Virus record (IMG/VR): IMGVR_UViG_3300037089_000776
Coordinates: 1-33,856 of that record
From: a virus
Length of the DNA stretch: 33,856 nucleotides
Direction: 5' to 3' (one strand)
The translations under genes and the position numbers were made by a program. Shown one piece after another: positions 4,890-22,072 of this stretch. Below the pieces are notes generated by a model. That model saw only the letters and a program-made list of their open reading frames with translations, was not told the DNA's origin and did not search any database. The first letter of the stretch is position 1, and each line of letters begins with the position of its first letter.

Positions 4890-4931
4890 TAAAAGTACAA
4901 TAATTAAATACTAAGTGCAAGAGTTTTTATA
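4890..4931 (-). promoter_or_regulatory. Host-type promoter with upstream 16-nt box: CTTG-N20-TACTTTTA
   Basis: On the minus strand TATAAAAACTCTTGCA (4931-4916) contains CTTG. After 20 nt comes TACTTTTA (4897-4890), one base off TAnnTTTG. The 16-nt box is identical to the one before the SbcCD fusion gene. An AGTATTTA core (4913-4906) also lies in the spacer. The predicted leader to the ATG at 4850 is about 33 nt. Confidence 0.55.
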
Positions 4932-5349
4932 CGATTTCAAGAATATTTTTTTCCTGATTTATTGATGTATCAAAAATATTATATATCTCTATCATCGTAT
5001 TAATGATGTTTTTATTCTTTTGGTTATCAATTTCAAATATATTTCTCCAAAATTTTTCATAATATGCAAGAGATACTTCCTGAGTTTCTTTTTTATAAAA
5101 CTGATGATAGAAAAAATCAAAAAAATAATTTCTTAAACCAGTATTTTTACTAAAATCAATATTTTCTTTTTTAAATTCATCACAAACCTTATTAAAACAC
5201 CAATTGTAATGATTTTTTATATCATTATCATCACTAAGAGTTTCACTATCAAGATAAAAATCAACAATATAATTAAGTAAATTAATTGTAAAATCTTTAT
5301 AAATTTCAACCCTGTCTTTTACGATAATATATTTTTGACTACTGCCCAT
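4927..5349 (-). CDS. Unknown 140-residue aromatic-rich protein
   Basis: No family is recognised. The protein is mostly helical, with many Phe, Tyr and Trp residues (YFFDFFYHQFYKKE), and ends in EKNILEIV. It starts two bases after the stop of the GH25 lysozyme gene, so it is probably co-transcribed with lysis functions. The 16-nt promoter box of the next unit overlaps its final codons. It has no signal peptide and no clear membrane helix. Confidence 0.62.
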   Translation of the reverse strand: MGSSQKYIIVKDRVEIYKDFTINLLNYIVDFYLDSETLSDDNDIKNHYNWCFNKVCDEFKKENIDFSKNTGLRNYFFDFFYHQFYKKETQEVSLAYYEKFWRNIFEIDNQKNKNIINTMIEIYNIFDTSINQEKNILEIV

Positions 5350-5351
5350 AA

Positions 5352-6038
5352 TTAAAATGAATTAAAAAAATCGCTTTTCATGATACTTAAATCAATATCA
5401 CCAGTATAACCATTAACTCGTCCGATTTCTGTAAATTGCCAGATTTTCCAATCTGTCCAGCCATTTGGAATTTTTGGTAAACTAACTTCTGGATTGTTTA
5501 AATATGCAGCAATCCATAAAGGATTTTTACCAAATATTGGACTTGCATTAGTATCAAAAAAACTTTTATATGTGTATATAATAACATTAATGTTTTGTTC
5601 GGATAATTTTTGAATAAAAGTACCGATAAACCTATTCATATGGTCAACTTTATTGGTCCAGATATTATAATTTGAATATGCCTCAATATCCAATACTAAT
5701 GGTAATGTAACTTCAGGTAAAAGATTTATATGTGTTAAAACATTTTGTACTTCATCGTTAGCATCATTTTCCGGAAGATTGACATTTCCTGGTCGGGCAA
5801 AATGATAATAACCAACTTTAACACCATTTTTTAACGCACTAAGAACTCTTGCATTTAAATTATAAATATTATCTTCATGGTAACTATTTCCTTCTGTTAT
5901 TTTAATAAAAGCAAATTCAACACCAAAATCATGTGCCTTTTTCCAATTAATATCTTTTTGGTATTTGGAACAATCAATTCCAAGAACACATTCCAATTCA
6001 TTTAATCGTTTATTTGATATTGTTGTTACCATTGTCAT
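5352..6038 (-). CDS. GH25 lysozyme (phage endolysin)
   Basis: This 228-residue muramidase cleaves the beta-1,4 bond between N-acetylmuramic acid and N-acetylglucosamine in peptidoglycan. The GH25 landmarks are all present: GIDCSKYQ at the first strand (D22), VGYYHFARPGN, then LVLDIEAY with D117 and E119 as the acidic pair, and WIAAY and WKIWQFTE near the end. The fold fills the chain, so there is no separate wall-binding domain. No signal peptide is visible, so release would need a holin such as the candidates at 3128-3484 or 4346-4543. It follows the Vsr-like endonuclease gene by three bases and is probably read from the promoter motif before that gene. Confidence 0.93.
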   Translation of the reverse strand: MTMVTTISNKRLNELECVLGIDCSKYQKDINWKKAHDFGVEFAFIKITEGNSYHEDNIYNLNARVLSALKNGVKVGYYHFARPGNVNLPENDANDEVQNVLTHINLLPEVTLPLVLDIEAYSNYNIWTNKVDHMNRFIGTFIQKLSEQNINVIIYTYKSFFDTNASPIFGKNPLWIAAYLNNPEVSLPKIPNGWTDWKIWQFTEIGRVNGYTGDIDLSIMKSDFFNSF

Positions 6039-6041
6039 AAT

Positions 6042-6926
6042 TTATATTAATGCTTTTAATTTATTTTCAATATCTTCATCATATTTTATTCTTATGAGAT
6101 TTATATCATTTTTATTACAAAATTCTTTTTTTATTTTATCTCTTTCTTGTCGTATTTTCAATCCCTTTTCTCCCCCAAAATATTTAACCGTTTTAAAATG
6201 TTGTTTTCCATCATATTCAATTAATGTATTATAGTCAGGCAAATAAAAATCAAAATATAATGAACGTTCATTAATACACCCATCAAATTTTTTCTGATAT
6301 TCATAATTTAAATTATTTTTTATTAAAAATTGATTAATTTTAATTTCACCTTTTGGTTGTTTGCATTTAGGACATCCTTGACCATAAATATGATTATGTG
6401 GTGTTTGTGAAAAAATACCATGTTTAGGACATATAATATCTATCTTAATTTTATTACCCACATAATTAACCAATGAATAATCATATTTATTATTATGTAT
6501 TTTATTTACATTTTGAATAAATTCATCAGATGTTGGTTTATATTTTTTTGCACATTTTGGACATCCTTGACCATTCAAATGGTCTTTTGGTTTTTGTAAA
6601 AATTTACCATGTTTATAACAAATTATTTCAATTTTATGGTTTGCATTAAAATATTGTACCAACGAATAATCATATTTATTATTATGTACATTATTTGCTT
6701 TAATAATATATTCTTCTGTTGTGGGTTTATATTTATTACTACATTTTGAACATCCTTGACCATTTAAATGATTATTAGGTCTTTGTTCAAAAATACCGTG
6801 TTCGGGACAAATAATTTTTATTTTTGTTGAATTATCAATATAATTTACAATCGAATAATCATATTTATTTTCATGAATATTTTTTGCTCTTTCAATAAAT
6901 TCAATATTTGTTAGGTTTATGCCCAT
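6042..6926 (-). CDS. Vsr-like (EDxHD-type) homing endonuclease with three DUF723-like repeats
   Basis: Three repeats of about 60 residues each carry KYDYS, an IICxxHGxF core and a closing GQGCxKC, which look like small zinc-binding DNA-recognition modules. The C-terminal part has FDFYLPDYN, LIEYDGKQHF and a following RDKIKK, the layout of Vsr-fold endonucleases related to the EDxHD homing family. The enzyme would cut a site in a phage lacking the gene. I start it at ATG 6926 (MGINLTN). The 10-mer at 6940-6949 lies 13 nt upstream, whereas the longer frame starting at 6965 would include the motif. It sits alone between a strong terminator and the lysozyme gene. It shares its nuclease part with the gene at 23168-24046 but has different repeats. 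Confidence 0.83.
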   Translation of the reverse strand: MGINLTNIEFIERAKNIHENKYDYSIVNYIDNSTKIKIICPEHGIFEQRPNNHLNGQGCSKCSNKYKPTTEEYIIKANNVHNNKYDYSLVQYFNANHKIEIICYKHGKFLQKPKDHLNGQGCPKCAKKYKPTSDEFIQNVNKIHNNKYDYSLVNYVGNKIKIDIICPKHGIFSQTPHNHIYGQGCPKCKQPKGEIKINQFLIKNNLNYEYQKKFDGCINERSLYFDFYLPDYNTLIEYDGKQHFKTVKYFGGEKGLKIRQERDKIKKEFCNKNDINLIRIKYDEDIENKLKALI

Positions 6927-6939
6927 AATATTACTTTCA

Positions 6940-6949
6940 TATAAATACT
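6940..6949 (-). promoter_or_regulatory. 10-mer motif AGTATTTATA before the Vsr-like endonuclease gene
   Basis: A perfect copy of the proposed late promoter element lies 13 nt before the ATG at 6926 and after the terminator at 6987-7013. It can also supply the lysozyme gene downstream. Confidence 0.6.
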
Positions 6950-6986
6950 TTTCAATATGAAACATTTGGTATCATAGTTATCACAT

Positions 6987-7013
6987 AAAAAAAAAGGCAT
7001 CTGAAAAGATGCC
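6987..7013 (-). terminator. Strong Rho-independent terminator after the 1100-residue gene
   Basis: A perfect 7-bp stem GGCATCT/AGATGCC closes a 4-nt loop. On the minus strand it is followed by nine T. It lies within 40 bases of the stop of the 7023-10325 gene. The plus strand also has a T run, so it may work in both directions. Confidence 0.92.
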
Positions 7014-7022
7014 TTTTTTATT

Positions 7023-10000
7023 TTAAAGTTTATTGTTTTTAGTGTTTAAATAATCTTCTGGTTTATAACCAAGTAAATGTTTCATTTTATTGAATTGTTC
7101 ATTTACTGGACGCTTTTTAGTCTTCTGTTCATTTTCATTCAATTTTTGGACAGGATTTTTCATTGCAAATACTTTTGTACCATCAGTAAAGAATTTATTT
7201 TCATTCATTGCCTTAACAACATTTTCATTTATATCAACTTTTGATGTATATGTATTACCCATACCTTCAAGACTTAATTTTTGAAGTTTTTCAACTTCTT
7301 TGATATCGGTAATTTCTGTGACTTCTTTTAAATCAAAATCAACTATTTTTTTCTTACCAAGAACATCAAAATATTTACCAGATACCATACCTTCTTTAAG
7401 TCCAACTCTTTCATTCCAGCCAGTTTGTTCTTTGTCAAATTGTACTTTCTTTGCTTTAGTTTGTTCGATTGGTTGTGGGTCTTTGTTATACATAGGTGCT
7501 TTACCTCTGAACTCAAGATTTATTTGACGTTGTTTATAATTTTCATCACCCATATCGGCTTTCATACGGTCTTCAAATCTCTTACCAGGTTCATTATCAT
7601 AAACATAATCTTTTAAGTTAAGTTTATATTTCTTAACTTCTTCAGCTTCTTCTGTAGTCATATTACGTTTTGGAATTTCATCACCTGCATCATTTGCCGA
7701 ATCACCAACATCTTTAAGTGCTTCTCCACTTTTTGCGTCAGTTGCTTTAATTTCACCCTTTTCAAGTTTTTCACCTAATTCATAAGGGTCTTTAACTTCA
7801 GTTTGCTGGTCATTATATTCCAAAGCATTTTCAATATCTACAATTTTCGAAATTGAACTATCTTTCAAATCTTTTTTGAAATTCTTTTTGTTTTCAACAC
7901 CCAGACGGTCTTTGAGAACTAATGCTGACGGTTTTCTGTCTTCTGTCATTTTTTTAAGTTTATCTTGATGAATTGAAAATGCTTTCAATTCGTTATTTAT
8001 TTCTTCCAATAGGTTAGCGGATTCGCTTATGCTACCACCACCACCTGTACTTCTTGCACCCATGTCCACATTCGTACTCTGGTCGCCCGTAGGAACTGCT
8101 TTATTTGACATGGACATTCCATCTGATTGTATCATAGTCTGTGTTTCTTCTTTAACATTATTTTTATCAATACCCATTTCTTCTCTCCATCTGCTGTAAT
8201 CATATACTAAATCGTGTCCAAATCTGTAAACACCAATATCAGTTTTACCATCAGGATATTTAGCATTTACAAACTGCCATTTAATACCATTTAACATAAA
8301 AGGTTCTTCACCACTTCTATCTGATATATATTCTACAACATCATGTAAACTCAAAGTTTCATCAACCTTCTCAGGTAAATTTTTATGTTTTGTCGAAGCA
8401 AAATCATCAGCATCTTTATAACTCATAGAATCTGCTGCTTTTGCTACCTTACCACCAACTTTATTTGGACTTAATTCACCCTTTTGAACAGCATGAACCA
8501 TACCCATAAATCTTTGTTGTGCTTTTGATTTTGATTTTTCATCAAGATTTTTTGATTCCAATTCACCTGTTTTTATTGTATTCATTTCAGTATCCTTATC
8601 AGCTTTATCCCAACCCTTTACAGTATTATTTGTAAAAGCTGAAGTATCATCGACAATAGTATTATCTTCTTTAGCAACACTATTTTTTTTATTAGTTTCT
8701 TTCAAAGTACCGGAAATACCATCATTTTTCAAATTTGGATTATCTTTATGTGGAAAGAAAGAATTTTTCTTTGTCATATCATTATGAAGAATATCTACAT
8801 CTTTGTCTCTCATCAAGTCTACATCTTGGTCAACAAATAACATAGTATTGTCACTAATTTTCTTTTCCTTTGCTTTACGGTCAGAAGATTGTGATATCGG
8901 ACTTACACCCATACCCTTATTACTGTTTGTATGAGTTGATTGATATTCTTTACCAAGTCCTTTATTAAATGAATCATCTTCATTTAATATTTTAATAAAC
9001 TCTTCAAAACCATTAGTTTCTGTTAAATAATTACTTTCCTGAATAATTGTACCACCTTTCCATGCAGGAGTTTTCTTTACTTTAGCTTTACCTTTGACTT
9101 TCATCAAATCACCTGAACCCCACATTGCAGGACCATAATATGGACCACTGCCACTACTATTAGTACCATCCGAACCACCACTACCACCACCAGTACCAGT
9201 TGTTTCATTTAAAATATTACCATCATCATCAATTAAACTTAAATTTCCGTGGTCAGAAACATACCAAGTATTTGGATTGAAATTATTTTTTGCTTTCCAT
9301 TTTTTAATAGCATCGAGAGAATCCCTTGTCTCAATAAATTCACCAACATATTTACCACCACAGGAAACAATTTCTTTATAACCATTTGATTCGATAAAAC
9401 AATCATCCTGTTCAGGTTTATCAGGCATATCTACTTCTTCAGGTTCAGCAACATTCAGAGGTTCATTTTCAGCAACTTTTTTCTTATATCCTAAAGGTGC
9501 AGTATATTGACCTGTACCACCACCAAATGCACTACCCATACCACCTGCGCCACCTCCAGAACCTGTTGTCTCTGCCATACTATTAAGTACTTCAAGATTA
9601 TATCCAATACTTTCAAGTTCAGCTTTTAAATCTGCATATTCTTCAGGTGTTGCCGGACGACTTTCTTTTGCATATTCCGGAGAAGCAGATGTGTGTTGTC
9701 CTACATGTGAATATGCCATTTTATAGTTTCCGTGGTCATCTTCTTCTGGAAAATAAGCAAATAAATCAGGATTTCCAGGGTCTTTTTCATTAACTAAAAA
9801 TTGTACTTTAGTTAATGGTTCATCATTCTCTTTAACCACTGGTTTCAAACCAGTTGGAGCGAGTTTTGTGGGTTTTATATCACTTTTATGTTGCATAGTT
9901 TGTACTCCTGTTTTTTTAAGTTGATTTATACCGCTTTTATCTCTTCTTTTTTTCTCTTTAGGGACTGCTTGTTTATATTTTTGTAAATATTTTGGACTAT

Positions 10001-10325
10001 TGAGAACATAATCATTAAATAACATATTCTGAATAGTTTCATTATAATGATAACCATATTTTTCTTCACCGTTTTCAGCCATTTCTTCATATTTAGCTGA
10101 TAATTTGGGGTCTGAAAAAACCAACGCTTCCATTTTAGCCAAACTGAAAATTTTCTTTTTTAATGACTGTTCAACTTCATTCAATCCATTATCAATTTCA
10201 TATAACATATCAGTAGCTTCACTTAATTTTACGTGTTTTTTATTTATCACATCATTAAATGTTTTTTCATATCCTTTAGATAATTGACTAACAGGTTTTT
10301 GTAATGTTGGTTTAACGTCTGCCAT
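7023..10325 (-). CDS. Large mosaic, mostly disordered phage protein (candidate virion or scaffold protein)
   Basis: The 1100-residue protein is highly charged and mostly low complexity. Small folded modules are separated by Gly-rich linkers (near residues 254-272 and 380-395). One module around residues 170-245 contains FAYFPEED and VGQHTSASPEYA. A second around residues 310-365 contains KNNFNPNTWYVSDHGN. A third near residue 680 contains MLNGIKWQFVNAKYPDGK. The first two resemble small conserved domains I associate with phage proteins, but I cannot name a family. The C-terminus ends FNKMKHLLGYKPEDY. Cysteines are few. Its start overlaps the stop of the 68-residue gene (TAATG), and a strong terminator follows. 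A head-core, scaffold or carrier role is possible but unproven. Confidence 0.8.
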   Translation of the reverse strand: MADVKPTLQKPVSQLSKGYEKTFNDVINKKHVKLSEATDMLYEIDNGLNEVEQSLKKKIFSLAKMEALVFSDPKLSAKYEEMAENGEEKYGYHYNETIQNMLFNDYVLNSPKYLQKYKQAVPKEKKRRDKSGINQLKKTGVQTMQHKSDIKPTKLAPTGLKPVVKENDEPLTKVQFLVNEKDPGNPDLFAYFPEEDDHGNYKMAYSHVGQHTSASPEYAKESRPATPEEYADLKAELESIGYNLEVLNSMAETTGSGGGAGGMGSAFGGGTGQYTAPLGYKKKVAENEPLNVAEPEEVDMPDKPEQDDCFIESNGYKEIVSCGGKYVGEFIETRDSLDAIKKWKAKNNFNPNTWYVSDHGNLSLIDDDGNILNETTGTGGGSGGSDGTNSSGSGPYYGPAMWGSGDLMKVKGKAKVKKTPAWKGGTIIQESNYLTETNGFEEFIKILNEDDSFNKGLGKEYQSTHTNSNKGMGVSPISQSSDRKAKEKKISDNTMLFVDQDVDLMRDKDVDILHNDMTKKNSFFPHKDNPNLKNDGISGTLKETNKKNSVAKEDNTIVDDTSAFTNNTVKGWDKADKDTEMNTIKTGELESKNLDEKSKSKAQQRFMGMVHAVQKGELSPNKVGGKVAKAADSMSYKDADDFASTKHKNLPEKVDETLSLHDVVEYISDRSGEEPFMLNGIKWQFVNAKYPDGKTDIGVYRFGHDLVYDYSRWREEMGIDKNNVKEETQTMIQSDGMSMSNKAVPTGDQSTNVDMGARSTGGGGSISESANLLEEINNELKAFSIHQDKLKKMTEDRKPSALVLKDRLGVENKKNFKKDLKDSSISKIVDIENALEYNDQQTEVKDPYELGEKLEKGEIKATDAKSGEALKDVGDSANDAGDEIPKRNMTTEEAEEVKKYKLNLKDYVYDNEPGKRFEDRMKADMGDENYKQRQINLEFRGKAPMYNKDPQPIEQTKAKKVQFDKEQTGWNERVGLKEGMVSGKYFDVLGKKKIVDFDLKEVTEITDIKEVEKLQKLSLEGMGNTYTSKVDINENVVKAMNENKFFTDGTKVFAMKNPVQKLNENEQKTKKRPVNEQFNKMKHLLGYKPEDYLNTKNNKL

Positions 10326-10531
10326 TATTTTATATCACTTTTCCAAAATTCTCTTTTCTGCCATAATACTTTATAAACAGCTTCCATTGCATTTTTTATC
10401 GTTGAAATAAGTTCATCTCTTGATGCACTATTGCCGTTACGAAGTATTCTTTTTATCTCTTTATCAAGGTTGTCATTAACAAATTTTTTTATTTCACTAT
10501 TAACAACAGCTTTAACATCAGTATTGTCCAT
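10325..10531 (-). CDS. 68-residue helical protein, translation-coupled to the 1100-residue gene
   Basis: No family is recognised. The protein is a charged alpha-helical chain (EIKKFVNDNLDKEIKRIL) with an aromatic C-terminal part (YKVLWQKREFWKSDIK). Its stop TAA shares bases with the ATG of the large gene downstream, so the pair is translationally coupled and the products may act together. The 10-mer AGTATTTATA lies 19 nt before its ATG and makes it the first gene of the unit. Confidence 0.7.
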   Translation of the reverse strand: MDNTDVKAVVNSEIKKFVNDNLDKEIKRILRNGNSASRDELISTIKNAMEAVYKVLWQKREFWKSDIK

Positions 10532-10550
10532 TTTATATTTATCTATCGTT

Positions 10551-10560
10551 TATAAATACT
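10551..10560 (-). promoter_or_regulatory. 10-mer motif AGTATTTATA before the 68-residue gene
   Basis: A perfect copy lies 19 nt before the ATG at 10531 and downstream of two terminator hairpins. It would drive the 68-residue and 1100-residue genes as one unit. Confidence 0.6.
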
Positions 10561-10584
10561 TGGCTAACATGAAAAAATGATTAT

Positions 10585-10624
10585 AAACAAAAAGAACGCA
10601 TATCATAATTAATATGCGTTCTTT
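10585..10624 (-). terminator. Second, 13-bp terminator hairpin after the exported-protein gene
   Basis: A perfect 13-bp stem AAAGAACGCATAT pairs with ATATGCGTTCTTT (10591-10603 with 10612-10624) around an 8-nt loop. On the minus strand the stem itself ends in T and is followed by a T-rich tail. It backs up the smaller hairpin at 10632-10656. Confidence 0.75.
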
Positions 10625-10631
10625 AGAAATA

Positions 10632-10656
10632 ATAAAAAGTCCTCCACTTGCGGAGT
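10632..10656 (-). terminator. First terminator hairpin after the exported-protein gene
   Basis: On the minus strand CTCC and GGAG pair around GCAAGT and are followed by GACTTTTTATT. It starts within ten bases of the stop of the 10664-11158 gene. The stem is short, so it may need the second hairpin. Confidence 0.6.
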
Positions 10657-10663
10657 ATATTAC

Positions 10664-11158
10664 TTAAAACGAGTGTGAAAGAGTTATTAATGGCATAATG
10701 TGACCATTAATATATCCCACACCAGCACCAATAAGTTTATTATATGCGTCAACAGTAATTGCAGCACCAATTTTCACACCTTCAGCACCACCTATTTTAT
10801 ACTCTGTTAATAATAATGCATTTACAGAATAATAACAATATGCATCTTCTGTTGAAAATTTACCATATGATAAACCAAGTCCAGCACTTGTTAATGAAGT
10901 GAGATTTGCTGGTTTATTCGAAAAATCAATAGCAAAAGCTGTTAAAGTAATTACTGGTCTGAATAAAAACTGCATATTTGTTGTAGGAACAGCAAAATTA
11001 GGATTAGCAAATAACGCTTCAGCAAGTTCTTCTTGTTGTTTTTGCATTACACGTTTAATCGAATTACCAAATCCATACCAAGGACTTTGGGTGCTTTGAG
11101 CACTCAAGGTTATTGCAAACATTAATAATACAACAATTGTTAAAATTTTCTTTTTCAT
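10664..11158 (-). CDS. Exported protein with Bacteroidota-type signal peptide, possible outer-membrane barrel
   Basis: The 164-residue precursor starts with three Lys and a hydrophobic core ending ALTLSAQ-like (observed: AITLSAQ), then STQSPWYG, a typical Sec signal peptide for this phylum with cleavage after SAQ or nearby. The mature part alternates hydrophobic and polar residues (FLFRPVITLTAFAIDF, AGLGLSYGKFS, GVKIGAAITVDAYN) and ends in LITLSHSF. A C-terminal Phe is usual for outer-membrane beta-barrels. It may act in lysis, superinfection exclusion or envelope remodelling, but no family is recognised. It is the second gene of a unit starting at 11742 and is followed by two hairpins. Export is well supported; the barrel is inferred. 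Confidence 0.7.
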   Translation of the reverse strand: MKKKILTIVVLLMFAITLSAQSTQSPWYGFGNSIKRVMQKQQEELAEALFANPNFAVPTTNMQFLFRPVITLTAFAIDFSNKPANLTSLTSAGLGLSYGKFSTEDAYCYYSVNALLLTEYKIGGAEGVKIGAAITVDAYNKLIGAGVGYINGHIMPLITLSHSF

Positions 11159-11169
11159 TATTTTAAATA

Positions 11170-11742
11170 TTATTTTTGTAAAACGTTATTTCTCCAATAT
11201 TTATAAAAAATATCAAAATATGATTCAATTTTTTTAATTATTACATCATTATCAGGATTATCAGCAGTAAAATCCGGAAGGTAATTGAATTGAATTCCTG
11301 TAGTCTTTTCATCCGGAGTTACTTTATAAACAAATTGTAAAACACCATCAATTGTACCACCCCAAAAAATCAAATTATCATAGATACTTAACTCAGTGAA
11401 TTTGATATCAACATTCATATCGTTAAAATAATTTCTGAATTTTTCTTCCTCTTCACTTTGGTCAAAATCGGTCTTTTTATTTACTTGTTTATTATCTTCA
11501 GTATCATCAGGAATTGCAGGATTTGCGGGAGTATTATCTGTAGGATTATTAGTTGCTACAACATCTTCATTTAAATCCAATTTACGATGACGAGTTATTT
11601 TAAGCAAATCTCGCATACTCAAATCCTTTGGAATACTATCAAGTACTTCATTAACATTGGCATTATATTTACCATCACGCATTCTTTTCATGAGTATTCT
11701 CATTTGATTCGGAGAAGTTTTATCGTTGATATTGTTTTTCAT
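11170..11742 (-). CDS. Conserved-looking phage protein of unknown function (190 residues)
   Basis: The N-terminal third is basic and helical (MRILMKRMRDGKYNANV). A Thr/Asn/Pro-rich linker with acidic residues (about 65-105) follows. A folded C-terminal domain contains YDNLIFWGGTIDGVLQFVY and ESYFDIFYKYWRNN. It reads like a conserved phage protein of the virion or packaging region, but I cannot name it. The first Met has a 10-mer motif ending 12 nt upstream. The spacing to the next gene (exported protein) is 11 bases, so the two probably share a message. Confidence 0.68.
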   Translation of the reverse strand: MKNNINDKTSPNQMRILMKRMRDGKYNANVNEVLDSIPKDLSMRDLLKITRHRKLDLNEDVVATNNPTDNTPANPAIPDDTEDNKQVNKKTDFDQSEEEEKFRNYFNDMNVDIKFTELSIYDNLIFWGGTIDGVLQFVYKVTPDEKTTGIQFNYLPDFTADNPDNDVIIKKIESYFDIFYKYWRNNVLQK

Positions 11743-12826: not shown

Positions 12827-13723
12827 TTATTTAAAAATTTCATTTAACCAATTATTTCTTAAAGCATTATGATATGCACCACCATATTTTTTGGAAAATT
12901 CTGTTTTTGTTTTACAATCTTTTGCTGCTAACAAACATTTATCATATGTCCAATATATTATATTATATGGTAATTTATACATATGCTCAGATATAATATC
13001 AATCCATTTATTTTTCACTGCAGTACTATATCCAACAGAACATTTTTCTTTAAATTCTTTTTTAGTTAAATATTTTAATGCTTCATTTTTACATTTATCA
13101 AAAGTCCAAAAAATTTCTCGTTTGGGTTTTTCCATATGAGAACAAATATCGTTTAGCCATTTATTTTTTTGTGCTGAATTATATGCACTACCAGAATTAA
13201 TTCTAAACTCATTTTTGAATTTATACTTTAATGCTTCTGTTTGACATTTATCATATGTCCAAATTAAATTATTTCCACCAATACCGCCAGTTTTTGCTTT
13301 ATTAAGTATACACCAACTATTATTTTTATATTCTTCAACATATTTACCTTCTAACATTATTGCTTCATCAACAAAAATATACTCTGTTAGTTGTTTAAAT
13401 TTGGGTATTAAACCAGTTTTATCAATATATTCAGTTACCGCATCCTTATTATCATTTTTTCTCCACATCATTCTATTTTGAATATTATAAGTTAATCCAA
13501 CATATACATGTTTATCCGAAAATTCATAGGAATAAACACATTTATGTTTTTTATTTCCCAATCTTATCATATGCAAACAAATATCATTTAAAAATTTACC
13601 CTTTCTTGCACTAATATATGCACTTGGATATCTTAATTTAAATTCACTTCTTGATGTACATTTTATTGATTCAGCATAGCAATTCTTTTTATTCCAATAA
13701 TTTCTATTTTTTCTTTTTTTCAT
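12827..13723 (-). CDS. GIY-YIG homing endonuclease with flanking DNA-recognition repeats
   Basis: Residues about 60-150 form a GIY-YIG nuclease: CVYSYEF for the GIY strand, YVGLT for the YIG strand, Arg in NIQNRMMW and the catalytic Glu in LEGKYVEEY. One repeat lies before it and three lie after it. Each resembles WTYDKCxxEALKY, then EF and AYxxAxKNxWLNDI, of about 45 residues. These are probably helical DNA-reading units that give a long recognition site. Free-standing enzymes of this kind promote their own transfer between phages. It has its own 10-mer motif and ends eight bases before the deaminase gene. The nuclease residues are intact. Confidence 0.85.
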   Translation of the reverse strand: MKKRKNRNYWNKKNCYAESIKCTSRSEFKLRYPSAYISARKGKFLNDICLHMIRLGNKKHKCVYSYEFSDKHVYVGLTYNIQNRMMWRKNDNKDAVTEYIDKTGLIPKFKQLTEYIFVDEAIMLEGKYVEEYKNNSWCILNKAKTGGIGGNNLIWTYDKCQTEALKYKFKNEFRINSGSAYNSAQKNKWLNDICSHMEKPKREIFWTFDKCKNEALKYLTKKEFKEKCSVGYSTAVKNKWIDIISEHMYKLPYNIIYWTYDKCLLAAKDCKTKTEFSKKYGGAYHNALRNNWLNEIFK

Positions 13724-14273: not shown

Positions 14274-14275
14274 AA

Positions 14276-17200
14276 TTATTCTAAAATCATAGTCGATATC
14301 CCATTTTCATCTAATTGAACACTAATTAAATAATCAGGATTAATTTCATGTATTTGTTCAATTATTAAAACTTTTTTCATATGATTTTTAATCAATTGCA
14401 AAATATTAATGAATTCTTCAACACTGCCTTCCAAATCAAATTTGCCCATAATTTCATCAAGCAAAAACATCATTGGTTTTGCTTTGACGTTGATTTGATT
14501 TAAAGCAAATTTTAAAACAACACTTGCAAAAGTTCTTTCTTTTCCGGAAGCACTAATACAATCAATAATTGCTGTAGGTCGATTATTATATACCAATTTT
14601 GGTCTTAAATCATCCAAATCCAGCCAAACTTTAAATAGTGCTACTGATAATATATTTTCAAGTGTCACATTAATTTTTGGTAAAATATAATTTGATAATA
14701 TTTGTGTCGGTATACCATCCCTATGAACACATTTTTTATACAATGACACAACAGAATCCCGATATTCCTGTTCTTTAAATGCGGTGATTAATTTGTTATT
14801 TGCCGCAATTTTTGCGGACTTTTCACCAATAGCAGTTTTTTTAAGATAAATATTCTCTTTCGAATCTTCTTCTTCTTCTTCCAAAGTCTCAAGTCTTAAT
14901 TTTGCCGTATCGACAACCTTTTCAATTTTATGGTTTTCTTCAATTTGTAATAAACTATTATCATAGTTGTCAATTTTTTGTTGCAATAATTCAATATGAA
15001 GTTCTTCATTTTGAATTTTTGTGGGAATCTGGTTCAATTCTGTTTGAAAAATATTACGCTTATTAACATCATTCATTTCATTTGTAAGTACGCCAATTTC
15101 CTGCAATACTTCTTCCATTTGAAGAGCATCAGATTCAATATCAACACTAATATGACCAACATCAGCTTTTTTGGCATTAATAATTTCCAGATGTGCAGGT
15201 ATGTCGCTTTCTTTGTCCCTAATTTCATTAGCAATACCGAACATTTCTCTTTTAATTTTAGAAATATTTTCATCAATATGTTTTAAATGGTCAGGAACAA
15301 TTTCTTGTTTACAGGTAGGACAAATGGGAATTTCAGCATTTTTTCCTTCCATTAATGCTAATACTTCTTTCTTTTTTGAAGCACCGTCTTGTTTTAACCT
15401 AAATATTTCACCATTTATAATTTCAATTTGATGTTCTTCATCACGAATATTCTGTTGAATTGATTTGATGCTTAATCTTTTTTGATATTCTTCTGTTTTA
15501 TGTGCTTCTTTCTTTTCAAGAAGTAATTTTAACCTCTCAGCATCATATGTTTCTCTTAAAATAGCAATACTTGCCTTTAAAACCTCTTCACGTGCTTTAT
15601 AATCGTTTATATTGGTGGTATAGATACCAATACTCTTTTTAGTATCATCTACGCTTAAATTGTATATTTCAGGGTCTATTTTAAATAATTTCTTTGATAA
15701 GTTTTCGATATATGTTCTTCCGAATTGAACTTTATTACGAACTTCAGGAAGTGTGGTTGTTTCAATTGATTGAATTTCGTCTTCAAGTGCAAAAATTTCT
15801 GTTGTTAATTGTCCGTTTTGTTCTTCGGTTTTTAAAACATCACATACAACTCTGGTTTTTTCATTAATTTTTTTCTGATAAACTTTTAAACTTTCAAGTT
15901 TTTTATCAAAAATATCCAAACCACTATCGTATAATAATGAATCAATAAAAACAGCCATATCATTTGACAATATCCGGTTAAGTGTATCAGAAGTTGTCAT
16001 TACAATACGCATGAAATTATCGTAATTTCCAATGATTGTTTCAATTTTCTGTTGAGTTTTTACTCTACGGTCTTCATCGAGTTTATCCAATGAAGTATTG
16101 ATATCCATTGCTTCATCAGGATTTGTGAGCAAATAATAATCTATTGTAGTTGGAGCACCATTGATTTCGCCTGCTTTATTACGAGTAATTTCGGTTTTCT
16201 TTTTAATACCATAATATTCACCATTAGCTTCCAATACCAAATAACCTTCACAACCAGTAGCATCATTTCTGTTATTAACAAAACGTTGGTCACCATATTT
16301 CATACGTGTTTCGGTTTCCAATGTCTTACCAAAAAGAATATATGATATTAACTTCATTATGGTAGTTTTACCCGCAGTGTTTATTCCGGTTATCTGAAAT
16401 AAACCATCCATATCCCTCCAATCAATATCAAGTTCATGATATGACATAAAATCTTTACCACCGAACTTAATAATATTCCATTCAATATTACTTACATCAT
16501 CAAGAATGATATCTGCAGAAATTTCTTCATCAAGCGCAATAATGTCTTCAATGAGTTGTTTGTCAGTTCCAATTCTTTCCAGATATTCATTAAAAATTTC
16601 ATGCTGAACAGTTGTTTCAGTAATATTTTCTAAAGTAACATTTTCATTGATTTCAATATTTTCACTTTCAAGAAATTTATTTTCATGAGAAATCGTAAAA
16701 TTATTATACTTTGATTTTATGTATTCAACTAATTTTCTTTCATTTTCCTTAGTCCTTGTTTGTGGTAATGTACCCCAAATAAACCGAATTTTCATATATT
16801 TAGTAACATCAGGAATTTCAAAATCCAAATCATTAAAATCAGTATACGGAGTTATTTTAACATTTTTAAAAGACCATTCATTGGCAATTGGAACTTCCTT
16901 GACTGATATATTCTTCTTATCCTTAACATTCCATAATAAATAACCATGAAAAGCATCATCACCTTCAGAAACATCCTGTGCAATTAATGACCCGCAATAT
17001 GCCATTGTTTGGTTCTTACCCAAATATTGCATTTTGTGTATATCACCAAACATTGATAATGTACCTTTAAAATCAGAAATTTTATAATATTGTTTGCTTT
17101 TCATTTCAAAACCTGTTGTGGATTTGCAACCATTAATAGGGTCATGAAATAAGTCAATAAAAGTAGAATCTGGTAAATTAGCAATAATTATTTTTTTGGC

Positions 17201-17623
17201 ATCTTTATGTTTCCAAGGATTGTTATTTTTTTCTCCATGATGCCAAACTGCCCAAATTATATTGTCATCACCATAAAATCCTGTTTTATCATAATAAGTA
17301 ACTTCAGGATTATTTAATGTTTTTACAATTGCTTTAATACTATCAACACGTCTGAGATTTTTCTTTCTGCAATCATGATTACCACGTGTTATTCTTACCG
17401 GAGCAATTTTACTCAACTCGGTGAGTAATTCGTGTGCTAATATTAATTGTTCACCCTGCAGGTCCAAATAGTCATGAACTAAATCGCCAACAATTACGAT
17501 TCTGTCAGGTTTTTCCGTTTTTAATGAATCTATGAGGTTTTTAAATACATTTTCGTATTCTTCTTTACGTAAAGGTGCTTTTCTTATATGTATATCTCCA
17601 AGATGTGCTATCTTTTCAATCAT
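14276..17623 (-). CDS. Single-chain Mre11-Rad50 (SbcD-SbcC, T4 gp47-gp46-like) nuclease/ATPase
   Basis: One 1115-residue frame joins both subunits of the recombination nuclease that processes DNA ends. The Mre11-like part (residues 1 to about 330) has all metal motifs: LGDIHIR, VGDLVHD, RGNHDC, VWHHGE and FGDIHK. The Rad50-like part begins about residue 390. It has Walker A GINTAGKTT (GKTT at 418-421), long coiled coils around a CPTC zinc hook (C768, C771), a signature-like SASGKERTF and Walker B MMFLLDE (D1056, E1057), then an IIEQIHE loop. In T4 and E. coli these are two genes. I start at MIEK (17623), because the longer frame would begin inside the promoter -7 element. The gene has a host-type promoter with the CTCTTG box, fitting early or middle replication expression. 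Confidence 0.92.
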   Translation of the reverse strand: MIEKIAHLGDIHIRKAPLRKEEYENVFKNLIDSLKTEKPDRIVIVGDLVHDYLDLQGEQLILAHELLTELSKIAPVRITRGNHDCRKKNLRRVDSIKAIVKTLNNPEVTYYDKTGFYGDDNIIWAVWHHGEKNNNPWKHKDAKKIIIANLPDSTFIDLFHDPINGCKSTTGFEMKSKQYYKISDFKGTLSMFGDIHKMQYLGKNQTMAYCGSLIAQDVSEGDDAFHGYLLWNVKDKKNISVKEVPIANEWSFKNVKITPYTDFNDLDFEIPDVTKYMKIRFIWGTLPQTRTKENERKLVEYIKSKYNNFTISHENKFLESENIEINENVTLENITETTVQHEIFNEYLERIGTDKQLIEDIIALDEEISADIILDDVSNIEWNIIKFGGKDFMSYHELDIDWRDMDGLFQITGINTAGKTTIMKLISYILFGKTLETETRMKYGDQRFVNNRNDATGCEGYLVLEANGEYYGIKKKTEITRNKAGEINGAPTTIDYYLLTNPDEAMDINTSLDKLDEDRRVKTQQKIETIIGNYDNFMRIVMTTSDTLNRILSNDMAVFIDSLLYDSGLDIFDKKLESLKVYQKKINEKTRVVCDVLKTEEQNGQLTTEIFALEDEIQSIETTTLPEVRNKVQFGRTYIENLSKKLFKIDPEIYNLSVDDTKKSIGIYTTNINDYKAREEVLKASIAILRETYDAERLKLLLEKKEAHKTEEYQKRLSIKSIQQNIRDEEHQIEIINGEIFRLKQDGASKKKEVLALMEGKNAEIPICPTCKQEIVPDHLKHIDENISKIKREMFGIANEIRDKESDIPAHLEIINAKKADVGHISVDIESDALQMEEVLQEIGVLTNEMNDVNKRNIFQTELNQIPTKIQNEELHIELLQQKIDNYDNSLLQIEENHKIEKVVDTAKLRLETLEEEEEDSKENIYLKKTAIGEKSAKIAANNKLITAFKEQEYRDSVVSLYKKCVHRDGIPTQILSNYILPKINVTLENILSVALFKVWLDLDDLRPKLVYNNRPTAIIDCISASGKERTFASVVLKFALNQINVKAKPMMFLLDEIMGKFDLEGSVEEFINILQLIKNHMKKVLIIEQIHEINPDYLISVQLDENGISTMILE

Positions 17624-17656
17624 TAAAAAATTTATGTTAATAATATTATTTTTACA

Positions 17657-17698
17657 CAAATATATCTAAAACGCTCTTGTAATGCAAGAGTTTTTATA
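17657..17698 (-). promoter_or_regulatory. Host-type promoter with 16-nt box for the SbcCD fusion: CTTG-N20-TATATTTG
   Basis: On the minus strand TATAAAAACTCTTGCA (17698-17683) includes CTTG. After exactly 20 nt comes TATATTTG (17664-17657), a full TAnnTTTG match. The leader to ATG 17623 would be about 27 nt. The -33 region is also part of an inverted repeat, CTCTTG with CAAGAG (17674-17690), that could bind a regulator. Confidence 0.68.
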
Positions 17699-17714
17699 AA
17701 TAGTCAAATGACAT

Positions 17715-17759
17715 TTTGTCACTAAATGCTCTCTGGTGCAATATTTGTTAATATTTATT
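17715..17759 (+). promoter_or_regulatory. Promoter region of the small heat-shock gene
   Basis: On the plus strand TTTG (17715-17718), a 21-nt spacer and AATATTTG (17740-17747) give a near-consensus Bacteroidota promoter with one mismatch in the -7 element. AATATTTATT (17750-17759), one base from the 10-mer motif, follows 29 nt before the ATG. Either or both may be used. Confidence 0.42.
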
Positions 17760-17788
17760 AAAAATAATAATATTAAAACTTAAAAGCC

Positions 17789-18214
17789 ATGCCAACAGTA
17801 AGACACATTCATCCTTCAAAATTTTTAAATTTATTCTTTGATGAAGATTTTGAATTTCCAACAATTCATAATCCTTTCGAACATTCAGATTATGAATGCC
17901 CAATTCATGACATTATTGAAAACGACAAGGAGTTTGTTGTTGAAGCAATGATGGCAGGAGTAAAAAAAGAAGATATTTCTGTTGAAGTTGAAAAGAATAA
18001 ATTACGAATTAAAGCAGAACGTAAAGAAGTTAAAGACCAGAAATATAATCGTAAAGAATCCTTCACAGGTATTTACAGAAGGTCGATTATTATGCCTGAT
18101 AATGCTGATGTCGATAACATCACCGCAACAATGACTGATGGGGTTTTGACTGTAACAATTCCAAAACTTGCAACTGAACCAACTCCTGTTAAAAAACAAA
18201 TCGAGATTAAATAA
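17789..18214 (+). CDS. Small heat-shock protein (Hsp20/alpha-crystallin)
   Basis: The 141-residue ATP-independent chaperone would hold unfolded proteins. The alpha-crystallin domain spans residues about 38-125. It has the EAMMAGVKKEDISVEVE stretch, a YRRSIIMPDNAD segment and the family hallmark ATMTDGVLTVTIPK (A-x5-GVL). The short C-terminal tail carries the usual basic residues. It is transcribed alone on the plus strand against almost every neighbour, with its own promoter-like sequence and a strong terminator, so it behaves as an independent cassette. Hsp20 genes are known in some large phages, where they may protect virion assembly. Base composition looks less AT-rich than neighbouring genes by eye, which may point to acquisition from a bacterial host. 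Confidence 0.95.
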   Translation: MPTVRHIHPSKFLNLFFDEDFEFPTIHNPFEHSDYECPIHDIIENDKEFVVEAMMAGVKKEDISVEVEKNKLRIKAERKEVKDQKYNRKESFTGIYRRSIIMPDNADVDNITATMTDGVLTVTIPKLATEPTPVKKQIEIK

Positions 18215-18240
18215 CGCATATTGGTAGTCTCAAACTGAAT

Positions 18241-18270
18241 GGGGTCACAGATTGTGACCCCTTCTTTATT
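18241..18270 (+). terminator. Rho-independent terminator after the Hsp20 gene
   Basis: A perfect 9-bp stem GGGGTCACA/TGTGACCCC closes a 3-nt loop and is followed on the plus strand by TTCTTTATT. It sits in the short space between the convergent Hsp20 and sigma-factor genes. Confidence 0.85.
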
Positions 18271-18877
18271 CTGATAAATCCTCAGAAATATTCTTTTTTA
18301 ATTTTGTTTTTATATAATTAATTTTATTACTTACAGTACTACTTGTAAGCTGAAATTCATTACCAATTTCTTTATAATTATATCCTTGCACATATTTCAT
18401 ATCAAGTAATGTAAAATCGGTTGGTGATAATTGTGTTGATATATAATTTACTGCATTACAATTTTCAAAATTACTTGCCGAATTACTATTTGATACGGCA
18501 TCAAGATTAGCAGTATTAGTAGTAAAAGTACTATTAAAAAATGAACCACTATAATTACAGGATGTTAGTGAAGCTGATAATATTGTAGTACGGCATGCTG
18601 TAGTACATCGCCATTTATCAATCATATAATTTTTAGTAATGCTTAATACCCAAGATTTGAATTTTGATTTATTTTCACTAAAATCTTTAATATTTAAAAA
18701 AACTTTAATCAAAATTTCCGACACATCATCATCAATATCATAATATGTGGGATATTTACTGAGAATAAAATCTTTTACAATTTTTCTATAACGCTTATAT
18801 AGTGTTTCTTGTGCTGTTTGATTTCCATCCAAAATATTTTGTATCAGAACTATATCTTCTTGTTCTTTGTTTATCAT
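18266..18877 (-). CDS. Phage RNA polymerase sigma factor, ECF-like
   Basis: The 203-residue protein has the two domains of a minimal sigma-70-family factor. Region 2 lies at residues about 20-90 (AQETLYKRYRKIVKDFIL, then SKFKSWVLSITKNYMIDKWR). Region 4 lies at about 150-196, a helix-turn-helix with LDMKYVQGYNYKEIGNEF and STVSNKINYIKTKLKK. The linker between them (91-148) is unusual: rich in Ser, Thr, Asn and Cys and probably unstructured. Such factors redirect host RNA polymerase to chosen promoters. The repeated 10-mer before the structural and lysis genes is the obvious candidate target. The ATG lies 83 bases inside the upstream primase gene, in another frame, so the two are tightly coupled. 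Confidence 0.85.
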   Translation of the reverse strand: MINKEQEDIVLIQNILDGNQTAQETLYKRYRKIVKDFILSKYPTYYDIDDDVSEILIKVFLNIKDFSENKSKFKSWVLSITKNYMIDKWRCTTACRTTILSASLTSCNYSGSFFNSTFTTNTANLDAVSNSNSASNFENCNAVNYISTQLSPTDFTLLDMKYVQGYNYKEIGNEFQLTSSTVSNKINYIKTKLKKNISEDLSE

Positions 18878-19880
18878 AAGGTTTACTCAACTTATAGCTA
18901 AAATAATCATCAATAGTTAAACCCCTTGCGCCATACAGACTTTTTATTACTTCATCAATACCTCTATTTTTACGAAGTAAATCCATATCCTTCTCATAAG
19001 GAATTTTAACTATCCTGACCCTTTCTTCGCAGTCCACATAAATAGTATGTAAAATATAAAATAGTTCAATAGCATTTTTATGTGCATCGGGGTCTAATAA
19101 AACCACAACATTCGGTTTTAACTCTTTCAATTTAAAAAATAGTGTAGTTGAAATTGTTTTTCCCAACATTGGTATAATATTCACGGGAAATGATAACATT
19201 TCAAACGCACCTTCAACAAGATATACAGTAGAATCCCAATTTATTAAGCCTTCATTAAAAATAATTTTATCCTTATCGGATTTTGGATTATCATATGGCT
19301 TTTTCTTTTTATTTACAATATCATAATTACGTGCAACGAAATAATTTACTTCACCGTTTTTGTCGTATGAAGGTATAATTATTCGTTTTGTATATTTTCC
19401 AGTAGTACAAAAACCAAGCCTGAATTTTAAAATAATATCTCTCGATATCATCCTATCATTAATCATATAATTATATGCTTCGAAATGTTCAGAATTTGTT
19501 GCATCCATCTCAGAAAACAATATCATTTCTTCAGGAAGTTTTACTGCAACATATTCTTTTTCATAATCTTCTTCAAATGTATAATCAGCATATATGCTTG
19601 CATATGATTTATACAGGTCATAATCAATCGATGTTCCAAATTCTCTTATTAATCTGCCCAGAGAACCACTAAATTTAGGGTTATCACATTTCCAACAATG
19701 AAATCCCCGTCTTGCAGTATTAATTTCCAAATTGAATTTACCATCCGGATAAGCAAGTCCTTCTCTTTCCTGACAATGTGGACAATTAATCTGAAGTTGT
19801 TCAGATACATTTATACCTTGAACATCGCCAAAAACATTTTGAATGATTGCGTGAAACTCCTGACCCCTAATATTTGCCAT
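18795..19880 (-). CDS. DnaG-type DNA primase (zinc ribbon plus TOPRIM)
   Basis: The protein makes RNA primers for phage DNA replication. An N-terminal zinc ribbon has CPHC and CWKC pairs (about residues 33-36 and 62-65, counted from MANIRG). A catalytic core follows with RLGFCTTGKYTKRIIIPSY. The TOPRIM acidic sites are YLVEGAFEML and VVLLDPDAH. At 361 residues it is short, with no helicase domain. The first Met of the longer frame (19886) overlaps a TATATTTG element, so I take ATG 19880. Even then the predicted transcript would have almost no leader. The last 83 bases overlap the sigma-factor gene. Its Lys/Arg/Ser-rich C-terminus (RTRRYSSDTKYFGWK) may be a tail constrained by that overlap. 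Confidence 0.88.
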   Translation of the reverse strand: MANIRGQEFHAIIQNVFGDVQGINVSEQLQINCPHCQEREGLAYPDGKFNLEINTARRGFHCWKCDNPKFSGSLGRLIREFGTSIDYDLYKSYASIYADYTFEEDYEKEYVAVKLPEEMILFSEMDATNSEHFEAYNYMINDRMISRDIILKFRLGFCTTGKYTKRIIIPSYDKNGEVNYFVARNYDIVNKKKKPYDNPKSDKDKIIFNEGLINWDSTVYLVEGAFEMLSFPVNIIPMLGKTISTTLFFKLKELKPNVVVLLDPDAHKNAIELFYILHTIYVDCEERVRIVKIPYEKDMDLLRKNRGIDEVIKSLYGARGLTIDDYFSYKLSKPYDKQRTRRYSSDTKYFGWKSNSTRNTI

Positions 19881-19883
19881 ATA

Positions 19884-19914
19884 CAAATATAAAAAAAATT
19901 TGCCTCAAAACAAA
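19884..19914 (-). promoter_or_regulatory. Host-type promoter TTTG-N19-TATATTTG for the primase
   Basis: On the minus strand TTTG (19914-19911) is followed after 19 nt by TATATTTG (19891-19884), both full consensus. It overlaps the terminator of the upstream gene, and the start point would fall within a few bases of the primase ATG. Because part of the match comes from the terminator T run, chance cannot be excluded. Confidence 0.5.
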
Positions 19915-19930
19915 AGGTTTTAAGGCAAAT
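19891..19930 (-). terminator. Rho-independent terminator after the coiled-coil gene
   Basis: The arms ATTTGCCT and AGGCAAAT, extended past one mismatch by AAAAC/GTTTT, form a long hairpin with a 5-nt loop. On the minus strand it is followed by a run of eight T. It lies about 18 bases past the stop of the 19948-20499 gene. Confidence 0.85.
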
Positions 19931-19947
19931 CAGGTCCTTTTAATTAA

Positions 19948-20499
19948 TTACTTAAATCTCTTTTCGTTGGCAAGAAATGGAAAAAATTGAATCAACCTGT
20001 TTAAAAATGCTGCAGGTACAATAACAAAATTTGGTGTACCAATTGTAGGTTGTGTTGTAAAGCCAGGATTTTTCATATAATTGGATTGAATTTCATGAAA
20101 TATTGTTAATACTCCTTTTTTCAAATTATCATCATTTAAACCACCACCACCTTTAAGATTTTGAAGTTCATTAAAAATTCTTGTATAATCGGTTTTTGCC
20201 ACTTGTAAATCATTTCGAAGATTTTGATTTTCACTTGAAAGTAATGCAACTTGTTCCTGAAGCCACATAATATCTCCACCTTCTTTTGGTGGAGCATCAA
20301 TTTCAAACAAATCTTCTGATTTGGTTTTTAATGTTAAATCCACATCGCCCAATAAATTTTTAACAGTTTCTTTTGCTTTTATATCCCTTTCCTGTTCAGG
20401 AGTAAGTTTCTTTTCAACTACCTTTTCTGCTTTTTTAACAGGGGTAACTTTTTTATTACTACCTGTTGCTAATTTTACTAAATTACTTTTTGTTGTCAT
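19948..20499 (-). CDS. Unknown 183-residue protein with Lys-rich N-terminus and coiled coil
   Basis: I do not recognise a family. The first 50 residues are Lys/Val/Glu-rich and probably disordered (KKVTPVKKAEKVVEKK). A heptad region follows at about 77-115 (WLQEQVALLSSENQNLRNDL), then a Gly-rich hinge. The folded C-terminal part (VLTIFHEIQSNYMKNPGF, then LIQFFPFLANEKRFK) closes the chain. It follows the metallophosphoesterase gene by one base (TAATATG) and ends at a strong terminator, so the pair is one unit. A DNA-replication or virion accessory role is possible; the sequence does not decide. Confidence 0.68.
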   Translation of the reverse strand: MTTKSNLVKLATGSNKKVTPVKKAEKVVEKKLTPEQERDIKAKETVKNLLGDVDLTLKTKSEDLFEIDAPPKEGGDIMWLQEQVALLSSENQNLRNDLQVAKTDYTRIFNELQNLKGGGGLNDDNLKKGVLTIFHEIQSNYMKNPGFTTQPTIGTPNFVIVPAAFLNRLIQFFPFLANEKRFK

Positions 20500-20500
20500 A

Positions 20501-21994
20501 TTACGTTATTATTAAATTTGAATTTAAATGAGCAATGAGACCCAATTCATCATTCCAAATGAATCCTTCCCCTGCTTTAGCAGCACCAACAAAACCCTTC
20601 TTATGATGCCATTCTTCTGTACCAGTGAGACTTGAAAGATACCTTATTGTAACACCCAAATCTTCACTAACTGTTCTTGTCCTATCAAAAACAGCATAAT
20701 TTACATTACGTTTTCTGTGTATGTGACCTAAATGCCATTCATGATATAAAGTTTCACTCCACATTGGTTTTGATTCAATATCAGTTGCCATTATCATTGG
20801 TAATGAAACTTCTTTTTCTTCGCCACCGTGAGTTAAGCCAAGTAAAACTTTACCAAATCTGTAATATTTTCTTGGTGAAGCACCATTATTAACATTAACT
20901 TGGGTATCTTCATGAAACCATGCTTCCAAAACAGAACCCATGTAATAACTACGCTCAAAATCATGATTACCGGGAATTACCACAACATCAATAGGAACAA
21001 GTGTTTGTTTCAACATATTGATTGCATCAACAAGAAGTTTTAGACCAACATTAAATGTTTTTTGCCAACGTAAATCTTCATCCTGTGGTGTACCTTTAGT
21101 TGTAGTATTATTAAGATTATCACTGTTAAAAAAATCATTGCCCACAGGGAAAAGTATTCTTGAATATTGAAATCCATTTGCTCTTAGTATTAATGTTTCA
21201 ATTGTATTCAAAAATCTTTCACGGGCAATTTTAACATCATAATTTTCACCAGTTTCACCACCCCAAGCAAGTTTACCAATGTGTAAATCAAATATTGATA
21301 CTTCAAAAAGATTATTTTCATAAATATTTGCATGATTTTTTTCATAAAATTTAAATACTGGTGGTTTATATGTTTTTACCATATCCTGAAACATTTCACC
21401 AATAACTCTTTCTCTTATATTGGCTCTGTTTCTTTCCAGACGTGCTTTAACCTGATAATTTTGAACTGTTACTGGCGAACCTGTTTTCCATGAAGTAACA
21501 TCCCATTTATTAACAATATAACTCTCTACTCTCCATGTACTCAAATCTACTGCACATGCTTCAAGTAATTCGTCAAGAGTTTTTATATGGTCGGGAGGCA
21601 GATTTGAATTCCAAGTCCAATCTGCAGTTGCTTCATCGCCATCTTCATCTACAGTAAATTTAGTTTTTTCACCTTCAGGTATTCTGGGAATATCTGCTGC
21701 TGATAATGATACTGTTGTAGGAGCATTACCCGTAGTGCCATTAACAAAACAATAACTTGGTTCTGTTACTTCTTTAACATTTTTTTCGTAATTTTTGTAG
21801 GCATTATCGAACTTTGAATAAAGTTCTTCGGAAATTGCATTGTTTTCATATAAATCATAAACAATGGCTTTTACATTTTTTACATACGTGAACGAGTGTC
21901 CACATTTAACGGAGGCTTCTCTGACTGATATTTTATTTTTTATTGCATAATTTATAATTTCAATTGCTTTTTCAATTCTACTACCATTTATCAT
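20501..21994 (-). CDS. HTH-metallophosphoesterase (phage nuclease-like)
   Basis: The first 60 residues look like a helix-turn-helix (VREASVKCGHSFTYVKNV). The C-terminal half is a calcineurin-like metallophosphoesterase with all five metal motifs. These are FDLHIGK (about residue 235), VGNDFFNSD, IPGNHDFE (about 341), LTHGGEEKE and LGHIHRKRN (about 422). Related phage proteins are usually described as DNA repair or exonuclease-like phosphoesterases; the true substrate is not known. The HTH suggests DNA binding. It is 497 residues, longer than a bare Mre11 core, with no Rad50-like partner next to it. It is read from a host-type promoter with the CTCTTG box. Confidence 0.83.
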   Translation of the reverse strand: MINGSRIEKAIEIINYAIKNKISVREASVKCGHSFTYVKNVKAIVYDLYENNAISEELYSKFDNAYKNYEKNVKEVTEPSYCFVNGTTGNAPTTVSLSAADIPRIPEGEKTKFTVDEDGDEATADWTWNSNLPPDHIKTLDELLEACAVDLSTWRVESYIVNKWDVTSWKTGSPVTVQNYQVKARLERNRANIRERVIGEMFQDMVKTYKPPVFKFYEKNHANIYENNLFEVSIFDLHIGKLAWGGETGENYDVKIARERFLNTIETLILRANGFQYSRILFPVGNDFFNSDNLNNTTTKGTPQDEDLRWQKTFNVGLKLLVDAINMLKQTLVPIDVVVIPGNHDFERSYYMGSVLEAWFHEDTQVNVNNGASPRKYYRFGKVLLGLTHGGEEKEVSLPMIMATDIESKPMWSETLYHEWHLGHIHRKRNVNYAVFDRTRTVSEDLGVTIRYLSSLTGTEEWHHKKGFVGAAKAGEGFIWNDELGLIAHLNSNLIIT

Positions 21995-22030
21995 TACTTA
22001 ATAATTTAACATAAAAATTATTTTTGTTAT

Positions 22031-22072
22031 CAAAATTATGGTAAAATAACCATAAACACAAGAGTTTATATA
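22031..22072 (-). promoter_or_regulatory. Host-type promoter with upstream box: CTTG-N20-TAATTTTG
   Basis: On the minus strand TATATAAACTCTTGT contains CTTG (22062-22059). After 20 nt comes TAATTTTG (22038-22031), a full TAnnTTTG match. The leader to ATG 21994 would be about 30 nt. The box matches the two other CTCTTG promoters except for one or two bases. Confidence 0.65.
22037..22054. promoter_or_regulatory. Inverted repeat TATGGT-N6-ACCATA in the promoter spacer, possible operator
   Basis: A perfect 6-bp inverted repeat with a 6-nt centre covers most of the spacer and touches the -7 element of the metallophosphoesterase promoter. A repressor bound here would block polymerase. It could also be a small hairpin at the DNA level only. 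Confidence 0.4.

Follow-up and report, generated by a model that had tools for sequence, protein, structure and literature searches.

Genes and promoters in the window

The window, i.e. the whole stretch of DNA analysed, measures 33,856 bases and corresponds to the complete IMG/VR record IMGVR_UViG_3300037089_000776. Its gene set is that of a large tailed phage, and includes genes for a tail fibre, an endolysin, a SbcC-like protein, a DNA repair exonuclease, a primase, a RuvC-like resolvase and a sigma-70 family protein. Several homing-endonuclease-like genes are inserted among the phage genes (6042-6965, 22066-22374, 23168-24046, minus strand). Through the exonuclease, close relatives were identified among IMG/VR contigs, the longest measuring about 350 kb; the lineage is one of uncultured jumbo phages, probably infecting Bacteroidota. 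The Hsp20 gene, used as a pointer to the host, matched no relatives. Relatives were sampled as 80 loci with related exonuclease genes and 14 larger records; six related records of 218–340 kb were read.

A preliminary description of this DNA had singled out three promoters sharing a 16-nt box, placed at a fixed distance from a TAnnTTTG element. All three were located, and all lie on the minus strand. They are listed below with the genes that follow them, along with an additional promoter of the same type.

4931-4890, minus strand: promoter A, whole, TATAAAAACTCTTGCA-N18-TACTTTTA
4916-4931, minus strand: upstream part of promoter A, A-tract (UP-proximal-like) plus CTCTTGCA; TTG (-33) at 4920-4918
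4890-4897, minus strand: -7 element of promoter A, TACTTTTA, 20 nt from TTG
4545-4850, minus strand: 101-aa ORF 3' of promoter A, without PHROG match
17683-17698, minus strand: upstream part of promoter B, TATAAAAACTCTTGCA after TATT; TTG at 17687-17685
17657-17664, minus strand: -7 element of promoter B, TATATTTG; whole promoter 17698-17657
14276-17623, minus strand: SbcC-like/metallophosphoesterase-AAA protein, 3' of promoter B; start ATG at 17623; class-3 promoter (see below) in 5/7 orthologs
22057-22072, minus strand: upstream part of promoter C, TATATAAACTCTTGTG; TTG at 22061-22059
22031-22038, minus strand: -7 element of promoter C, TAATTTTG; whole promoter 22072-22031
20501-21994, minus strand: DNA repair exonuclease, SbcD-like (phrog_704), 3' of promoter C; class-3 promoter in 7/7 orthologs
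19884-19913, minus strand: additional N19 promoter of class-3 type before the primase; TTG at 19913-19911, TATATTTG at 19891-19884; class-3 match in 5/7 orthologs

The box is the same 16-mer in promoters A and B, and has 3 mismatches in promoter C. The TTG is separated from the -7 element by 20 nt in all three, as had been claimed. The TAnnTTTG sequence is exact in B (TATATTTG) and C (TAATTTTG) only, promoter A featuring TACTTTTA. Sites resembling promoter A reside in relatives at G001 129786 and G003 253886, both with TACTTTTA, and at G004 129465, with TAAATTTA. A search for the CTCTTG-N20-TAnnTTT pattern (AACTCTTGN{18,22}TANNTTT) gave 3 matches in the window, all on the minus strand, and 0 in the reversed control. 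With as many as 3 mismatches allowed, the window contains 6 copies of the 16-mer (1.7 expected; 6 was reached in 0 of 100 shuffles); the sites that have a -7 element at N18-22 do not include the three extra inexact copies (5838, 14513, 21572; 2–3 mismatches). Exact copies of the 16-mer found across IMG/VR, in 106 stretches, show no N20 peak, and were set aside as mostly due to chance.

The primase promoter shows two further features (19880-19929, minus strand). Its TATATTTG lies 3 nt 5' of the ATG, which suggests that the mRNA is leaderless. An inverted repeat, TTTGCCT...AGGCAAATTTTTTTT, partly coincides with the promoter and looks like a terminator for the gene upstream.

A promoter class shared by related phages

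The same genes carry the sites in relatives: the exonuclease, the SbcC-like protein and, for the site at 4890-4931, a small ORF. Further copies, as the preliminary description called for, are present in phage contigs of the same lineage. In the 80 exonuclease-related loci, matches to AACTCTTG followed by TAnnTTT peak at N20 (7 matches; 0–3 at other spacings); the shorter TCTTG is found 41 times at N20, most other spacings scoring 6–32, and one 52. The pattern CTCTTGN{16,24}TANNTTTG is present in 11 of the 14 larger related records, at N20 in most. When TAnnTTTG sites located before genes in the six related records were taken as anchor, TTG was found at N20 in 80/343, at N19 in 33, and in about 7 at most other positions. 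Intergenic TAnnTTTG sites have TTG at exactly N20 in 34% of cases in phages vs 7% at ordinary host sites, and AAAnnCTTG in 9.3% vs none; the host sites were taken from Chryseobacterium, Flavobacterium, Pedobacter and Marinifilum.

Scans of 1,151 upstream regions with position weight matrices (PWMs), controlled on reversed sequences (34.5 false matches expected per class), sorted phage promoters into three separate classes: class 1 (aGTATTTATAnnaAA, 333 matches), class 2 (tTGTAACAttt...tttCGTattat, 256) and class 3 (CTCTTG-N20-TAnnTTTG type, 255). The view that promoters A-C form a class of their own is borne out, class 3 being distinct both from the AGTATTTATA class, found at structural genes, and from the TGTAAC/CGTATAAT class. 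Class 3 is kept in the ortholog groups of the exonuclease (7/7), primase, SbcC-like protein, large subunit of ribonucleotide reductase (RNR), helicase and second sigma factor, and is a real phage-wide promoter class, located before replication and nucleotide genes. In 50 kb of phage PAU, a cultured distant relative, none of the three classes was clearly over control.

Near-identical N20 promoters of the TTTGG type are repeated before several small ORFs, in a fashion resembling early gene arrays, at L208 (G008, 31–37 kb) and L276 (G009, 183–193 kb).

Likeness to host rRNA promoters

TAHHTTTG is the known -7 element of the Bacteroidota primary sigma factor, sigma-ABfr (PMC6847099; PMC7366714). 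At ordinary promoters of F. johnsoniae and B. thetaiotaomicron the -33 element is weak or variably spaced (PMC6847099; PMC7366714), hence the sharp N20 of the phage sites stands out. The assignment of promoters A-C to the Bacteroidota core type holds, as the -33 TTG and -7 elements are used and the TTG falls within the range of about 19–21 nt in all three.

Regions upstream of 16S genes from 90 Bacteroidota loci were used for comparison; they represent the phylum, and may differ from those of the phage's own host. TTG was found at N18-21 from the TAHHTTTGC sites in 155/170. Once aligned on TTG, rRNA promoters have a T-rich stretch at -13..-11 and an A-rich one at -8..-4, and phage promoters show the same positions at similar frequencies. 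With a PWM trained on nothing but rRNA promoters, phage TTG-N20 promoters outscore their own shuffles (p 4e-12), phage TAnnTTTG sites lacking TTG (p 7e-7) and ordinary host sites (p 1e-12). The three promoters of the window score -0.2, -1.7 and 2.2 vs a rRNA median of 6.4, a value that refers to the phylum and not to the phage's own host; they have the proximal A-tract, with a weak distal part.

The T-rich/A-rich pattern resembles the E. coli UP element, and class 3 sites feature an A/T pattern like that of rRNA promoters, a T-run and an A-run, directly 5' of the -33. In five Bacteroidota genomes, among which the phage's own host may not be included, the alpha-subunit C-terminal domains (alpha-CTDs) retain SVRALNCLKA and FGKKS, through which the E. 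coli domain makes contact with UP DNA. By sequence, most of the bases that had been regarded as unexplained thus resemble an UP element followed by a -33 element.

Some features set phage promoters apart. C residues are more frequent in phage than in rRNA promoters before TTG (55% vs 19%), at -3, two bases further 5' (33% vs 17%), and after TTG (44% vs 26%), and the preferred spacing is N20 in phages, N19 in rRNA promoters. The flanking C residues (CTC-TTG-C) and the strict N20 fall outside the UP/-33/-7 account; they could reflect optimisation of strength for the host's sigma, or be the trace of a phage factor.

A proposed host-polymerase account

We consider it likely that class-3 sites are strong promoters of the UP/-33/-7 type for the host RNA polymerase carrying sigma-ABfr, used without an activator. 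Region 4 of sigma-ABfr would read TTG at -33, and region 2 TAnnTTTG at -7; the A-tract 5' of TTG would be an UP element docking the alpha-CTD, as at host rRNA promoters. Such a near-consensus combination probably enables the phage to compete with host promoters and capture host RNA polymerase for its DNA-replication genes. Prereplicative genes, encoding nucleases, primase, helicase, ribonucleotide reductase and the second sigma factor, would be expressed with no activator. The exonuclease gene probably gains a second start late in infection from the late-type element that overlaps its promoter. The data show the sequences, their spacing and conservation, the resemblance to rRNA promoters and the retained alpha-CTD residues; binding, timing and strength are inferred.

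Class 3 shares with Bacteroidota rRNA promoters, also read by sigma-ABfr, the TTG followed by TAHHTTTG, and the T-rich/A-rich stretch before TTG. In rRNA promoters the usual form is TTTG with G, T or C as the next base, mostly at N19, and there is a strong distal A-tract and a GC-rich start region, whereas class 3 prefers CTTGC and N20, and features the proximal part only. In function, the closest parallel would be T4 early promoters, which have been called 'uber' promoters, of UP/-35/TGn/-10 build and with additional consensus bases (PMC2988021). Both are of near-consensus host-sigma type, have an UP-like A/T part and extra consensus positions and, as known for T4 and proposed here, compete with host promoters (PMC2988021). 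Unlike T4 early promoters, class 3 would act through the sigma-ABfr -33 TTG and -7 TAnnTTTG, and includes replication genes, which in T4 are mostly under middle promoters.

The proposed mechanism is ordinary, and is mapped here in an uncultured phage lineage. The data provide a sequence-defined promoter class for uncultured jumbo phages, probably infecting Bacteroidota, and suggest that phages of this lineage copy the design of host rRNA promoters. An UP element is proposed for sigma-ABfr promoters, and would aid the development of strong expression tools in Bacteroidota. A full-text literature search for an UP element in Bacteroides gave no match, and the one for Bacteroidetes a mycobacterial match only.

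Is an activator needed?

The preliminary description had likened the upstream bases to the site of an activator such as MotA, which acts at T4 middle promoters. The two types of promoters are alike in having a short box at -30 to -40, before nuclease and replication genes. The MotA box, WWWTGCTTtA, takes the place of the -35, at 12±1 bp from the -10 (PMC2988021), whereas class 3 keeps an intact -33 TTG at 20 nt and its box is off the MotA position. MotA (PF09114) was found in 0/10 records, nine of which are related jumbo-phage contigs, and which may be incomplete; in the same ten, no AsiA (PF09010) match was over cut-off, weak partial matches being found in long open frames. Likeness to a MotA site is therefore not upheld, nor is the need for a MotA-like activator, since host rRNA promoters show the same T-rich/A-rich pattern before TTG.

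An activator unrelated in sequence to MotA might still bind the AAACTC part and make these sites middle promoters, in a MotA/AsiA-like appropriation of sigma. The type of genes (nucleases, replication), the phage-specific C residues around TTG and the fixed N20 speak for it, but the A/T part is accounted for by an rRNA-type UP element, and C before TTG is unlinked to the A-tract (p 0.8; one promoter per ortholog group). A two-component model fitted to pooled orthologs picked out a subclass with the box, located 5' of long conserved genes (131 vs 90±5.5), which was lost when one promoter per ortholog group was used (gain 85.1; shuffled 84.1±6.0). The subclass was rejected, the signal coming from orthologous promoters counted repeatedly; the deduplicated set, which at 65 promoters has limited power, behaves as its shuffles. 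We regard this alternative as unlikely. Just as doubtful is a variant in which CTC-TTG-C and the strict N20 would mark a middle class needing a phage factor that retunes region 4 of the host sigma-ABfr, evolved independently of MotA/AsiA. An activator is possible, but unnecessary.

Phage sigma factors and other promoter classes

Further elements are as follows.

18266-18877, minus strand: phage-encoded sigma-70 family factor (region 2 + region 4), between two nuclease genes; conserved in relatives
22065-22077, minus strand: complete class 1 (late-type) element, GTATTTATATAAA, sharing bases with the 5' part of promoter C; also kept in relatives
5' of 99-2141, 10325-10531, 12827-13723, 24709-24972 and 25781-29053, minus strand: class 1 elements; also L190-L283

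The gene of the sigma-70 protein, placed between the SbcC-like and SbcD-like genes, holds the same position in G001, G003, G004, G006 and G008. In T4, gene 55 adjoins genes 46/47, and the location of the sigma gene beside nuclease genes is reminiscent of this order.

Either this factor or the second one present in several relatives might read CTCTTG-N20-TAnnTTTG in place of the host sigma. At least one sigma-70 protein with regions 2 and 4 was found in 11/11 related records searched, and two in several, and the C residues of the -33 set it apart from host sites. Against this, TAHHTTTG is the sigma-ABfr -7 (PMC6847099; PMC7366714), the gene of the second sigma is itself under a class-3 promoter in 3/5 orthologs, and the AGTATTTATA and TGTAAC/CGTATAAT classes would better fit phage or ECF-type sigmas. 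Use of a phage sigma at class 3 is accordingly judged improbable, and we do not think that the 18266-18877 factor reads promoters A-C.

Class 1 is retained at the tail sheath gene and at large genes of late type, often 20–30 nt 5' of start codons, and is a candidate late promoter, perhaps read by a phage sigma factor. Its element aGTATTTATAnTAAA is found in 313/1,154 phage upstream regions vs 73 on the other strand. Class 2, which by sequence looks like an ECF-type promoter, was not found in the window. TTGTAAC(A/C)TTT-N15/16-TTCGTATAAT elements precede small non-conserved genes (median 138 aa) at L256-L266 (G004, 172–216 kb) and in other relatives.

The late-type element at the exonuclease promoter

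Across related loci the exonuclease promoter has the structure AATGTATTTATATAAA-(3–5 nt)-TTG-N20-TAnnTTTG. The distance from the AT element to TTG varies while N20 is fixed, so that the supposed 16-nt box is not one unit, but two elements side by side.

It is very unlikely that most of the upstream bases belong to an additional late-type element (GTATTTATATAAA) that overlaps the -33 region and would provide two start sites per gene. In its favour, a full class-1 element is present in the exonuclease promoter in 25/41 distinct loci, and an overlap in another register (TTGTATTTATA) occurs at RNR and a 405-aa gene. Against it, the register of the exonuclease promoter is found in only 2/72 ortholog-unique class-3 promoters, and promoter B orthologs lack the element's G. 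The late-type overlap applies to promoter C, and was rejected as an account of the class as a whole.

The spacer of promoter C (22036-22056, minus strand) contains an inverted repeat, TTATGGT-TATTTT-ACCATAA, found as imperfect copies in some relatives, and possibly an operator.
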